Shown one piece after another: positions 6,928-11,716 of a stretch of DNA of 41,833 nucleotides. A program made the position numbers and the translations under genes. The notes below the pieces were generated by a model. That model was given only the letters and a program-made list of their open reading frames with translations, made no database searches and was not told the origin of the DNA. Each line of letters opens with the position of its first letter. Within the stretch, counting starts at the first letter, position 1. The stretch covers positions 1 through 41,833 of the forward strand of contig CADAFP010000015.1 in the NCBI GenBank assembly GCA_902787185.1, given 5' to 3'. This DNA comes from an uncultured Bacteroidales bacterium (lineage in GTDB: Bacteria; Bacteroidota; Bacteroidia; Bacteroidales; Muribaculaceae).

Positions 6928-7368
6928 ATGACCGAAATCAACTACATGACTCAAGGCAAAGCCACCCTGCCAGTGCTCGACGAGACCGCCGTGCGCAACT
7001 GGATTGTCGAGGTGGCGCAACGTCACGGCCAGCGGGTCGGGTGCCTGACCTACGTCTTTTGTGACGACGAGTATATCCTGAAGACCAACCGTGAGTTTTT
7101 GGGGCATGACTATTACACCGACATCATCACCTTTGACTATACCAACTCTCGACACATCGCCGGCGACATGGTCATCTCGCTCGACACCGTGCGCAGCAAT
7201 GCCGAGATGCTGGGTGTCCCCTATGAGACCGAGCTGATGCGAGTCATGATTCACGGCGTGCTGCACCTGTGCGGTCAGAATGACAAGGGACCAGGCGAAC
7301 GCGAGGTCATGGAACGTTACGAGAACGAGGCGTTGGCACTGTTGCCCGACAACGTGATTGAGAAATGA
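6928..7368 (+). CDS. ybeY: Endoribonuclease YbeY (rRNA maturation)
   Basis: A 146-residue zinc-dependent endoribonuclease of the UPF0054 family, involved in 16S rRNA 3' end maturation and ribosome quality control. The family metal-binding motif is present near the C-terminus as HGVLHLCGQND, with two histidines and a final aspartate instead of the third histidine of the E. coli protein. My recollection is that Asp is common here in Bacteroidota. The preceding DYYTDIITFDY and AGDMVISLDTVRSNA segments are also family hallmarks. Start ATG 6928 is set by the promoter. The stop overlaps the mnmG start by 4 bp (ATGA), so the two genes are translationally coupled. Confidence 0.95.
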   Translation: MTEINYMTQGKATLPVLDETAVRNWIVEVAQRHGQRVGCLTYVFCDDEYILKTNREFLGHDYYTDIITFDYTNSRHIAGDMVISLDTVRSNAEMLGVPYETELMRVMIHGVLHLCGQNDKGPGEREVMERYENEALALLPDNVIEK

Positions 7369-9242
7369 GAAACGACTATGATGTCATAGTGGTGGGTGCC
7401 GGCCATGCCGGTTGTGAGGCGGCATGTGCCGCCGCACGCCTTGGCTCACGCACATTGCTCATCACTATCGACATGAACAAGATAGCCCAGATGAGCTGCA
7501 ACCCCGCCGTGGGAGGCATCGCCAAGGGGCAGATTGTGCGCGAAATCGATGCCCTGGGCGGACAGATGGGCATCATCACCGACCGTAGCAGCATCCAGTT
7601 CAGAATGCTCAACCGCAGCAAGGGTCCAGCGATGTGGAGCCCACGTTCCCAAAGCGACCGGCAGCAGTTCATCCTGGAGTGGCGACAGGTGCTCGAGAAC
7701 ACTCCAAACTTGTACATTTGGCAGGATTCAGTCGATGAATTCGTTATCAAGGGTGGGGTAGTGCACGGTGTGAAGACCCTCTTGGGCATGACTTTTACCG
7801 CTACTGCCGTGGTGCTCACAGCCGGCACTTTCCTCAACGGATTGATGCACGTGGGCCGCGTACAGACCCCAGGCGGACGTGTTTCGGAACCCCCTGCCCA
7901 CGGAATTACCGAACAACTTGCGGCATTGGGATTCACCGTGGGACGCATGAAGACGGGCACACCGCCACGTCTCGACGAGCGAACCATCGACTTCTCGCAA
8001 TGCATCAAGCAGGAAGGGGAGAAGGATTTCCATCATTTTTCCTACCTTCCTGGCGTGACCAGCGAATTGCCGCAACGGCCCTGCTGGATCGTGCATACCA
8101 ACGAAAAAGTGCACGAAGTGCTGCGCGAGGGACTACCCCAGTCGCCCCTATACAATGGTCAAATCACCAGCATCGGGCCACGCTACTGCCCCAGCATCGA
8201 GACCAAAATCGTCACTTTTGCCGACAAGACATCCCACCAGCTCTTTATCGAACCCGAGGGTGCCACGACCCATGAGATGTACCTCAACGGCTTCTCATCG
8301 TCACTGCCTTGGGAGGTGCAAATCGAGGCGTTGCGACACATTCCTGCCCTGCGCGATGTGCATGCATTCAGGCCAGGCTATGCCATCGAATACGACTTTT
8401 TTGACCCCACTCAACTGTACCATACCCTCGAGTCCAAAATCATCAAGAACCTCTTCCTCGCCGGTCAGGTCAATGGCACGACGGGATATGAGGAAGCCGC
8501 TGGCCAGGGACTCATCGCCGGCATCAACGCACACAACAACGTGCATGGCGGCCAGCCGTTCACCCTGGCCCGCAACGAGGCCTACATCGGTGTGCTGATT
8601 GACGACCTGGTGACCTGTGGTGTCGATGAGCCTTACCGCATGTTCACCTCGCGTGCCGAGCACCGCATCCTGTTGCGACAAGATGACGCCGACATGCGCC
8701 TCACCGAGAAAGGCTACCGCCTGGGGCTGGCAACAAGGACGCGATTTGACCTGATGTGCTCCAAGCGCGAACAGATGGACCACCTCACCGCCTATTGCCG
8801 TGAGACCACCGTCAAGACCGCTGCCATCAACCCGACACTCGAGGCCCTGGGCATGCAACCCCTGACGCAAGGTCAGCGCCTGCACGACCTGCTGTTGCGC
8901 CCCCAACTCAACATGGCGATACTGGCCGAAGCCCTGCCAGAATTACGTGCCCAGATTGACGGACTCGAGGACGCACGCCGTGACGAAATCGTCGAGGCTG
9001 CCGAGATAGCCATCAAGTACCGCGGCTATATCGAGCGTGAAACACTCATCGCTGACCGTGTGGCACGACTCGACAACGTGACGCTGCGAGGCAAGTTTGA
9101 CTACTCCCAGATTCACCAGATTTCGACCGAGGCGCGGCAAAAACTCCAAGCTATCGACCCCGAGACCGTGGGACAGGCCTCACGCATCCCCGGAGTCTCA
9201 CCCAGCGACATCAACATTCTGCTCGTTTTGTTGGGTAGATAG
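7365..9242 (+). CDS. mnmG: tRNA uridine-5-carboxymethylaminomethyl synthesis enzyme MnmG (GidA)
   Basis: A 625-residue FAD enzyme that works with MnmE to install cmnm5U at the wobble position of certain tRNAs. It has the N-terminal FAD-binding motif VVGAGHAGCEAACAAARLG and the two signature blocks CNPAVGGIAKGQIVREIDAL and GTPPRLDERTIDFS. Further on are the block TGYEEAAGQGLIAGINAH, the SRAEHRILLRQDDAD region, and the C-terminal helical domain with KYRGYIERE for tRNA/MnmE contact. Length is normal for the family. It is coupled to ybeY by a 4-bp overlap. A parS site begins 3 bp after its stop, so the end of this gene lies next to a chromosome-partition site. Confidence 0.98.
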   Translation: MRNDYDVIVVGAGHAGCEAACAAARLGSRTLLITIDMNKIAQMSCNPAVGGIAKGQIVREIDALGGQMGIITDRSSIQFRMLNRSKGPAMWSPRSQSDRQQFILEWRQVLENTPNLYIWQDSVDEFVIKGGVVHGVKTLLGMTFTATAVVLTAGTFLNGLMHVGRVQTPGGRVSEPPAHGITEQLAALGFTVGRMKTGTPPRLDERTIDFSQCIKQEGEKDFHHFSYLPGVTSELPQRPCWIVHTNEKVHEVLREGLPQSPLYNGQITSIGPRYCPSIETKIVTFADKTSHQLFIEPEGATTHEMYLNGFSSSLPWEVQIEALRHIPALRDVHAFRPGYAIEYDFFDPTQLYHTLESKIIKNLFLAGQVNGTTGYEEAAGQGLIAGINAHNNVHGGQPFTLARNEAYIGVLIDDLVTCGVDEPYRMFTSRAEHRILLRQDDADMRLTEKGYRLGLATRTRFDLMCSKREQMDHLTAYCRETTVKTAAINPTLEALGMQPLTQGQRLHDLLLRPQLNMAILAEALPELRAQIDGLEDARRDEIVEAAEIAIKYRGYIERETLIADRVARLDNVTLRGKFDYSQIHQISTEARQKLQAIDPETVGQASRIPGVSPSDINILLVLLGR

Positions 9243-9245
9243 TTT

Positions 9246-9261
9246 TGTTCCACGTGAAACA
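9246..9261 (+). other. parS site (ParB-binding), copy 1
   Basis: The 16-bp word TGTTCCACGTGAAACA fits the widely conserved chromosomal parS consensus TGTTNCACGTGAAACA at every position. It lies between mnmG and apt. An exact inverted copy occurs at 10372-10387. parS sites recruit ParB/Spo0J, which spreads and loads SMC near the origin. Confidence 0.88.
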
Positions 9262-9287
9262 TTATTAACATAAAATACTGATTTACA

Positions 9288-9821
9288 ATGAATAAGCAAG
9301 AATTAGAACGCGTACAACGCATTGTGCGCAACATTCCAGACTTCCCCGTTCCAGGCATCCAGTTCAAGGACCTGACCACTGCCTTCAAGGACCCCGAGGC
9401 ATTACAAATCATGACACTTGCCATGACCGACTTGTACCGTGACAAAGGTGTGACCAAGGTCGTGGGCATCGAGGCACGCGGCTTCATTGGCGGTGCCATC
9501 CTTGCCACACAACTCAATGCCGGCTTTGTGCCCCTGCGCAAGCCTGGAAAGTTGCCCGCCGATGTCATCCAGAAGTCTTACAGCAAGGAGTATGGTACCG
9601 ACACCATTGAGATTCACCAGGACGCCATTACGCCCGACGATGTGGTCGTTATCCACGACGACCTGCTCGCTACAGGTGGCACGATGCTGGCAGCCTATGA
9701 ACTGGTGAAATCGATGAATCCCAAGAAGGTCTATATCAGCTTCATCTGCGACCTGGCCGACCTGCACGGCCGCGACGTCTTCCCGAGTGACGTGGAAATC
9801 ACCTCCCTGTTCACTTTCTAA
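9288..9821 (+). CDS. apt: Adenine phosphoribosyltransferase
   Basis: A 177-residue cytoplasmic purine-salvage enzyme: adenine + PRPP gives AMP + PPi. The N-terminal APRT signature NIPDFPVPGIQFKDLT is followed by IEARGFIGGAILA and the base-binding loop region VPLRKPGKLP. The PRPP-binding motif is VVVIHDDLLATGGTMLAA (about residues 123-140). Length is usual. The short leader before ATG 9288 contains the parS site, and the downstream junction to uvrC is a 9-bp tandem array. It is probably transcribed with mnmG and uvrC. Confidence 0.97.
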   Translation: MNKQELERVQRIVRNIPDFPVPGIQFKDLTTAFKDPEALQIMTLAMTDLYRDKGVTKVVGIEARGFIGGAILATQLNAGFVPLRKPGKLPADVIQKSYSKEYGTDTIEIHQDAITPDDVVVIHDDLLATGGTMLAAYELVKSMNPKKVYISFICDLADLHGRDVFPSDVEITSLFTF

Positions 9822-9829
9822 AAAGACAC

Positions 9830-9892
9830 CTATAACATCTATAGCTTCTATAGCATCTATAGTATCTATAGTATCTATAGCTTCTATATTTT
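9830..9892. repeat. Nonanucleotide tandem array, seven units
   Basis: Seven exact-phase 9-bp units fill the apt-uvrC junction: CTATAACAT, CTATAGCTT, CTATAGCAT, CTATAGTAT twice, CTATAGCTT and CTATATTTT. The last unit ends 15 bp before the uvrC ATG. Copy number may vary between strains. Confidence 0.9.
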
Positions 9893-9907
9893 ATATTACG
9901 GGAATCC

Positions 9908-11716
9908 ATGACCGATGAGTTGAAGTTGAAATTGTCGCTGCTACCCGATGAGCCGGGCGTTTACCGCTACCGCAATCGGGAGGGCACCATTATCTATGTG
10001 GGCAAGGCCAAAAACCTGAAGCGCCGCGTCAATTCCTACTTCAACCGCGAACACGAGTCGGTGCGCACCACCATGCTCGTGCGCAATATCGCTGACCTGG
10101 AGTACACCGTTGTCAATACCGAAGAGGAAGCGCTCGACCTCGAGAACGCGTTGATCAAGGAGTATCAGCCGCGTTACAACGTCCTGCTCAAGGACGACAA
10201 GAGCTATCCGTGGATTTGCATCTCGGGTGACCTTTACCCCCGTGTATATATCACCCGAGACGCACGTTCCAAGGGCGACCGCTACTACGGACCCTATCCC
10301 AGGGCCGAAGTCGCTAAAGTGCTCATCGACACCATGCGACAGATTTATCCGCTGCGCACTTGCCGCCTATTTGTTTCACGTGGAACAATCGAGGCGGGCA
10401 AGCACCGCTTGTGCCTGCAATACCACATCCACCGCTGCGAGGGCTGCTGTCAGGGACTTGTCACACCCGAGCACTACGGGGAATACATTGCCGAAATCAG
10501 GCAGATTCTCAACGGCGACACCCATGTGCTCATGGAAGTGCTCATGCAGCAGATGCAGCAACTCGCTTCAGAGTTGCGTTTTGAAGAGGCCGAAATTGTC
10601 AAGCGGCGCTACAAGTTGCTGGAACACGTGCGGCGGCGTTCGGTCATTGTCAGCCCGTCGATCCACAACATCGACGTGTTTGGCTTGCTGCGCGACGACG
10701 ATGCCGCATGGGTGAACTATATGCACATGCGGGGTGGGGCAGTGGTACAGTCACTCACCCTTGAGTACCGCCTCTCGACACGTGACGAGGACGATGCCGA
10801 AATCATGTCGATGGCCATTGCCGAGGTGCGCCAGCGCTTTGCCGAAACCTACCGCCGCGACCGCGTGACCGAGGTCATGGTCAACGTCGTTCCCGACGTC
10901 GAATTCACCGGACTGTCATTCATCATCCCGCAACGCGGCGACAAGAAGAAACTGCTCGACATCGCCGTCAAGAATGCCACCCAGCGGCGCACCGACCGCC
11001 TGCGCATGATGGAAAAACTCAACCCAGAACAGCGCACCACACGCACCCTCACCACCATGCAGCGCGACCTGCGCATGACGGCTCTACCACGCCACGTCGA
11101 GTGTTTTGACAACAGCAACATCGGCGGTAAGGACGCTGTCGCCTCATGCGTTGTGTTCCGCAATGCCAAGCCGTCGAAGAAAGAGTACCGCCATTTCATC
11201 ATCAAGACCGTCGAGGGAGCCGACGATTTCGCATCGATGCGTGAGGTCATCACACGCCGCTACAGCCGTCTCATGCAGGAAGGGCAGGAATTGCCGCAGT
11301 TGCTCATCGTCGATGGCGGCAAGGGACAGGTGACGGCAGCCATCGAGGCGCTCGACGGCATCGGCCTGCACGGTGCGATTGCCGTTGTGGGCATTGCCAA
11401 ACGGCTCAACGAGGTCTATTTCCCGGGCGACAGCATTCCCCTCTATATCGACAAAAACAGCGAGACGCTCCACGTCATCCAGCGCCTGCGTGACGAGTCC
11501 CACCGCTTTGCCATCACCTTCCACCGTCAGCAGCGCAGCAAGGGACAACTGCACAGTGCCCTTGACGACATTCCCGGTATTGGACCCAAAACACGCGAAC
11601 TGTTGCTCAAACACTTCAAGTCCCTGAAACGCATCCGCGAGGCCACCGAACCTCAACTCGCCGCCATTATCGGCCCCTCTAAGGCCAAATCCCTCAAGGA
11701 AGCCCTTAAGGAATAA
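9908..11716 (+). CDS. uvrC: UvrABC excinuclease subunit C
   Basis: A 602-residue nucleotide-excision-repair nuclease that makes both incisions after UvrAB loads. Domains in order: GIY-YIG nuclease at the N-terminus (GVYRYRNREGTIIYVGKAKN, about 17-37) and the cysteine region around residues 152-180. The UVR/UvrB-binding motif RFEEAEIVKRRYKLL (about 222-236) follows. The RNase H-like endonuclease domain contains ECFDNSNIGGKDAVASCVVF and LIVDGGKGQVTAA. Tandem helix-hairpin-helix motifs (DDIPGIGPKTRELLLKHF) end the protein. Odd feature: codons 155-160 (F-V-S-R-G-T) are spelled by a perfect parS site. Start ATG 9908 follows the 9-bp array with no recognisable ribosome-binding site. Confidence 0.98.
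   Translation: MTDELKLKLSLLPDEPGVYRYRNREGTIIYVGKAKNLKRRVNSYFNREHESVRTTMLVRNIADLEYTVVNTEEEALDLENALIKEYQPRYNVLLKDDKSYPWICISGDLYPRVYITRDARSKGDRYYGPYPRAEVAKVLIDTMRQIYPLRTCRLFVSRGTIEAGKHRLCLQYHIHRCEGCCQGLVTPEHYGEYIAEIRQILNGDTHVLMEVLMQQMQQLASELRFEEAEIVKRRYKLLEHVRRRSVIVSPSIHNIDVFGLLRDDDAAWVNYMHMRGGAVVQSLTLEYRLSTRDEDDAEIMSMAIAEVRQRFAETYRRDRVTEVMVNVVPDVEFTGLSFIIPQRGDKKKLLDIAVKNATQRRTDRLRMMEKLNPEQRTTRTLTTMQRDLRMTALPRHVECFDNSNIGGKDAVASCVVFRNAKPSKKEYRHFIIKTVEGADDFASMREVITRRYSRLMQEGQELPQLLIVDGGKGQVTAAIEALDGIGLHGAIAVVGIAKRLNEVYFPGDSIPLYIDKNSETLHVIQRLRDESHRFAITFHRQQRSKGQLHSALDDIPGIGPKTRELLLKHFKSLKRIREATEPQLAAIIGPSKAKSLKEALKE
10372..10387 (-). other. parS site (ParB-binding), copy 2, inside uvrC
   Basis: TGTTTCACGTGGAACA is the exact reverse complement of the site at 9246-9261, so on the minus strand it reads TGTTCCACGTGAAACA. 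It lies wholly within the uvrC reading frame (codons 155-160), near the first cysteine region. A second exact 16-bp match 1.1 kb away makes chance very unlikely. Confidence 0.88.

Follow-up and report, generated by a model that had tools for sequence, protein, structure and literature searches.

The locus and its two parS words

The window, the whole stretch of 41,833 nucleotides of Bacteroidales DNA analysed here, carries on its forward strand the genes mnmG (gidA; 7365..9242; TIGR00136, 783 bits), apt, encoding adenine phosphoribosyltransferase (9288..9821; TIGR01090 and NF002636, both over their cut-offs), and uvrC (9908..11716; TIGR00194, 531 bits). The spacer separating apt from uvrC contains a tandem repeat at 9830-9888, with the unit CTATAGCAT, a period of 9, 6.6 copies and 88% matches. 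The word TGTTCCACGTGAAACA occurs exactly at 9246-9261, in the 45-base spacer between the mnmG stop and the apt start and ending 26 bases before the latter (site 1), and its exact reverse complement occurs at 10372-10387 inside uvrC, covering the third base of codon 155 and all of codons 156-160 in a stretch that encodes F-V-S-R-G-T (site 2). Both words match exactly the parS consensus TGTTNCACGTGNAACA, a 16-bp palindrome, as a chromosomal parS is expected to do, and neither is assigned to a strand; the uvrC site of most relatives has the fully palindromic form TGTTTCACGTGAAACA. The preliminary description of this DNA gave the two places, their reverse complementarity and the uvrC peptide correctly, while the opposite orientation that it ascribed to the pair was dropped as a meaningful feature, because the word is palindromic apart from two free positions and its orientation is without clear meaning.

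The same description held that two such words could not have arisen by chance, and this is borne out. Scanning the window with up to three mismatches yields four matches, namely the two places on both strands, a count reached by none of 100 dinucleotide shuffles of the window, and the number of exact matches to TGTTNCACGTGNAACA expected from base composition is 0.00014 for the window and 0.011 for the genome. A search of the draft genome (3,220,480 bases in 102 contigs, 80.86% complete) with up to two mismatches, which had been proposed as a check, found no scattered exact copies: there are 2 exact places, 1.1 kb apart, to which one mismatch adds none and two mismatches add 9, so that the pair comprises the sole matches at one mismatch or fewer and is few in number and clustered, as is usual for chromosomal parS. 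The two-mismatch words were considered as additional parS and rejected, since the reversed pattern used as a control has 24 matches in the genome and the 9 words are therefore background.

ParB, ParA and condensin partners

The earlier reading also depended on the presence of a ParB gene, which was looked for and found adjoining a ParA-type gene. The one ParB match in the window's genome (TIGR00180, 182 bits, C7:65333-65857) lies in an open reading frame with the Pfam domains ParB_N, HTH_ParB and ParB_C, and the ParA partner is the reading frame immediately upstream (locus L011), containing the motif KGGVGKTT and the domains AAA_31 (233 bits) and CbiA (CobQ/CobB/MinD/ParA; 108 bits). The DnaA gene is on a third contig. 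When residue numbers are carried over from Caulobacter ParB (6t1f) by our own alignment, the protein has R173 and G201 at two base-reading positions, a combination that represents the ParB state, Q173/R201 being the Noc state (PMC7383237). Positions 179 and 184, described as variable among ParBs, are occupied by F and K, and K184 is usual in Noc (PMC7383237). On this alignment the protein is predicted to have parS-type, not Noc-type, base-reading residues.

SMC and ScpB are the usual further partners of ParB and parS. Both proteins were searched for in six Bacteroidales genomes that all have ParB (G000, G513, G485, G352, G274 and G193). ScpB (TIGR00281) was detected in none of the six and in 9 of 14 controls, and SMC (TIGR02168) gave weak matches below the cut-off in all six and matches over the cut-off in 10 of 14 controls; on ScpB and SMC, these six genomes give no sign of a Smc-ScpAB loading platform of the Bacillus subtilis type.

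An old and near-constant site beside mnmG

Conservation of the spacer site was followed in 80 loci around uvrC collected from relatives, with the window added where counts reach 81. A parS word lies between mnmG and apt in all 77 loci holding both genes, exactly in 73 and with one mismatch in 4, the three other loci being L045, which begins within apt, and L102 and L103, in which neither gene nor a site was seen. Across 35 aligned spacers (34 from close relatives plus the window) the site never varies at its 14 fixed bases, and outside the 16-base site 8 of the 29 other spacer bases are invariant. An exact parS is present in 58 of the 61 genomes sampled from the genus, the window's own included, and absent in G004, G009 and G031. 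Across an order sample of 295 genomes, 182 have an exact parS and 113 have none. Among the best 30 order loci by mnmG match, a site with no more than one mismatch lies within about 150 bases of either end of mnmG in 22, as counted by hand from the positions of the matches, 12 of these being exact, and the remaining 8 are without a site; among 30 order loci picked for an exact parS, the word is within 250 bases of mnmG in 29 and apt was found in 11. A parS beside mnmG is therefore common in the order and not specific to the window, and site 1 appears from these comparisons to be an old, near-constant site. Two other arrangements were observed in the samples. Exact parS words flank mnmG on either side, about 1.9-2.0 kb apart, in G329:C22, G133:C3, G317:C1, G260:C24 and G346:C1, and G046 has six exact parS in three pairs on contigs C57, C66 and C142, with about 1.1 kb within each pair, perhaps reflecting a mixture of related strains.

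The uvrC site is frozen at the codon level

Among 81 UvrC sequences, parS lies at codons 155-160 in 49, exactly in 45 and with one mismatch in 4; another 5 have the word at codon 184 and 2 have it at codon 104, which leaves 25 without one. Pairwise gene identity among the 49 is 63-94%, and codons 156-159 are the only four of 409 testable columns lacking synonymous change, a testable column being one with a single residue in at least 80% of rows, and changes being counted among rows with that residue. Codon 160 varies synonymously once in the 49 sequences. Across 13 deep-branching members all five parS codons are invariant, as are 9 scattered single columns of 372. The 49 rows were picked by codons 156-157, and picking by peptide yields the same 49, the peptide being VSRET in 47, VSRGT in 1 and VSHGT in 1. 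In the 32 UvrCs that lack the codon-155 site different residues fill the place, ITPEY being the most frequent (10/32). When synonymous codons were shuffled within each of ten genes and the same frame was searched, nine genes gave the exact site in 0 of 2000 trials and the tenth in 1 of 2000; if one mismatch was accepted, the yield was 0 to 6 of 2000 across the ten genes, and 0 or 1 of 2000 in the five genes with codon-184 or codon-104 words.

The alignment of uvrC from relatives, suggested in the preliminary description, thus came out positive, the parS codons being kept while synonymous sites elsewhere vary, and it shows the conservation across relatives at the DNA level that is expected of a chromosomal parS. 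Taken together, the frozen codons, the rarity with which shuffling recreates the word and the other residues in site-less UvrCs argue that the DNA word, and not the peptide alone, has been kept in uvrC. Site 2 is probably newer than site 1.

Turnover of second sites

A tree was built from MnmG, Apt and UvrC with the site columns left out. The codon-184 rows form one clade and the codon-104 rows another, with a support of 100 each. Loss of the codon-155 site in a sister clade was considered, the first tree having nested that clade inside the codon-155 rows, and was rejected: with the long-branch row L113 left out, one branch (support 98) sets apart the 49 codon-155 rows and another (support 94.7, unstarred) the 11 other genus-like rows, so that no loss of the codon-155 site is needed. 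In the sister clade the second word lies at codon 104 or 184 of uvrC or in an nfeD gene, or none was seen. The simplest reading is that parS was gained in uvrC three separate times, at codons 104, 155 and 184. The gains at codons 104 and 184 are less firmly based than the codon-155 site, since all five codon-184 words have one mismatch, in four of the five within the central CACGTG, and the codon-104 clade consists of two members.

Second words also occur in other genes. Two of the 11 loci, L097 and L115, have one in nfeD upstream of mnmG (exact and one-mismatch), on the other strand, and the outgroup row L113 has a second exact word in ybeY. The genus loci L089 and L090, also among the 11, have the spacer site and no second word in about 9.8 kb. 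All second words in uvrC, nfeD and ybeY are read in one frame, as V-[STP]-[RH]-[EG]-T. Of the 25 UvrCs without an intragenic site, all 25 show the pattern [VIL][ST]x[ED] at codon 105, 21 show it at codon 156 and 21 at codon 185, the next commonest place being codon 283 (6/25), and the three top places coincide exactly with the positions of the uvrC sites. This match is descriptive and no blind test, since the pattern was picked after the three peptides were known; it suggests that parS gains were favoured where UvrC already had a V-S-R-E-T-like peptide and tolerates change. The second site is dispensable, as the relatives with one-contig genomes demonstrate: G513, placed near L097 and L115 on the tree with a support of 68, has the spacer site as its only exact site and one further one-mismatch word 181 kb off, and G485 has a single site, so that a second one is not required.

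Position relative to the replication origin

The window's own genome is in 102 contigs, and the origin was looked for in stretches of three one-contig genomes, G513 from the same genus, G485 from the same family and G352 from the same order. In G485 all 16 of the 5-kb bins between 1.294 and 1.374 Mb have negative GC skew and 7 of the 8 bins after them have positive skew, with parS at 1.420 Mb, 46 kb past the switch at 1.374 Mb; under a coarser two-state fit the switch falls at 1.347 Mb, 73 kb from parS. The best GC split in G352 is at 1.862 Mb and parS at 1.804 Mb, 59 kb apart. GC skew is weak in G513 (means +0.033 and -0.010), where the best split at 1.650 Mb is 88 kb from parS at 1.738 Mb and an alternative split at about 1.600 Mb is about 138 kb away. 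AT-skew splits lie 58 kb (G485), 329 kb (G513) and 801 kb (G352) from parS, and placing the origin by AT skew was rejected on account of this inconsistency across the three genomes. Skew within the window was likewise set aside as an origin signal, being small and changing in sign. The centromere-like role initially proposed for the segment thus draws support from the GC skew of two one-contig relatives and weak support from that of the third, with AT skew disagreeing in two of the three.

The gene dnaA lies at 0.782 Mb in G485, at the record start in G352 and at base 73 in G513, which places it 0.64 Mb (G485), 1.27 Mb (G352) and 1.60 Mb (G513) from parS, and the best-scoring parB is 966 kb (G485), 423 kb (G352) and 365 kb (G513) from parS. 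Scanning for DnaA boxes (TTWTNCACA) around the skew switch gave scattered boxes and no clear oriC. A trio of DnaA-box-like words in about 55 bases was seen at G513:C1:1621297-1621341, at a distance of about 116 kb from parS and close to the weak switch. A Hi-C study of gut bacteria describes parS clusters at ori and an ori that is not always at dnaA (PMC10197239), and a parS that marks the origin region in these relatives would fit that description.

Interpretation and alternatives

The two words are very probably the chromosomal parS, that is, the centromere, of this Muribaculaceae bacterium, in which site 1 is the old site and site 2 a later, putative ParB loading site in uvrC held at the DNA level. 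ParB dimers would load at both words, close as CTP-dependent clamps and spread over mnmG-apt-uvrC, and ParA would move the ParB cluster so that the origin region segregates first; binding, spreading and ParA-driven movement are here inferred from established knowledge of ParABS systems. Site 2 would have arisen inside uvrC in an ancestor shared by one part of the genus, and the hold on the DNA word would then fix the peptide (mostly VSRET) together with its codons. A wider proposal, to which we give even chances, is that a second centromere site has repeatedly been favoured near the first, being built in uvrC (three times, at codons 104, 155 and 184) and in nearby genes (nfeD, and ybeY in the outgroup) where a similar peptide pre-existed, so that the centromere may dictate part of a repair enzyme.

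The alternative that survives best, unlikely as it is, holds that the uvrC words, site 2 as well as those at codons 104 and 184, are redundant and drift in and out near the origin without benefit. It draws on the single exact site of G513 and G485, on the spacer site standing alone in L089 and L090, and on the mismatches of the codon-184 words, which mostly strike the central CACGTG. Frozen codons in 49 divergent sequences are nonetheless unlike neutral drift, and because of them the evidence argues for selection on site 2 in the codon-155 clade, though they say little on the words at codons 104 and 184. It is quite improbable that the sites are mainly regulatory, with ParB or another reader of the CACGTG palindrome controlling expression of mnmG, apt or uvrC. 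Site 1 is indeed close ahead of apt, and in Pseudomonas aeruginosa with raised ParB the promoters adjoining parS3 and parS4 are reported to be repressed (PMC5521831), but the constant neighbour across the order is mnmG, with sites at either of its ends and apt in 11 of 30 loci, and second sites lie inside genes, those in nfeD on the other strand. Least probable of all is that protein selection kept the word, the genus UvrC needing V-S-R-E-T in a cysteine-rich region and the parS match simply following: V-S-R-[EG]-T is found in 48 of the 49 site-bearing sequences, with V-S-H-G-T in the other, but codons are frozen along with residues, protein-keeping shuffles almost never recreate the exact site and the 32 site-less UvrCs do with other residues.

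If chromosomal parS with a selected second site is the correct reading, the locus is a case in which a DNA-binding site rewrites a protein. The reason why parS sites vary in number and clustering is described as an open question (PMC7333895), on which the repeated building of second sites in uvrC would bear, and the genus provides a ready comparison of lineages that have a single site, a second site at any of three places in uvrC, or one in a neighbouring gene. In draft Bacteroidales genomes, parS may mark the origin region, dnaA being far off in the three genomes examined.

Comparison with known systems

The words resemble the chromosomal parS of the Bacillus subtilis and Caulobacter ParABS systems in matching the 16-bp palindrome, in the presence of ParA and ParB genes in the genome, and in being few and clustered, and they may share a place near the switch in GC skew, to judge from two of three one-contig relatives. 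Unlike in those systems, parS here adjoins mnmG, far from parB and dnaA in G513, G485 and G352, and all six Bacteroidales genomes searched are without a ScpB match or an SMC over the cut-off. The Hi-C study of gut bacteria, which placed ori by parS clusters and GC skew, reports known condensin homologues as absent in three of twelve genomes, including B. caecimuris and Muribaculum intestinale (PMC10197239). The present genomes resemble those of that study in that the probable origin region at parS is away from dnaA, and its two Bacteroidetes in the search for condensins, here for ScpB and SMC, neither of which was found over the cut-off; unlike the work as described there, the genes that hold parS are named here and their evolution is treated. 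A literature search found no report of a parS next to mnmG in Bacteroidales, nor of one shifting within uvrC, and no claim of a first report is made, as the parS survey of Livny et al. (2007) could list such sites.

The locus is ordinary in kind, a chromosomal parS with one intragenic site as in Pseudomonas aeruginosa, and intragenic parS are well known, nine of the ten parS of P. aeruginosa being described as most likely within coding sequences (PMC4368675). The point of interest is the repeated gain of a second parS inside one gene. The likeness to P. aeruginosa lies in a parS inside coding sequence; unlike the case described there (PMC4368675), the word is found here at three codon positions of the same gene in related lineages, where a similar peptide already existed.
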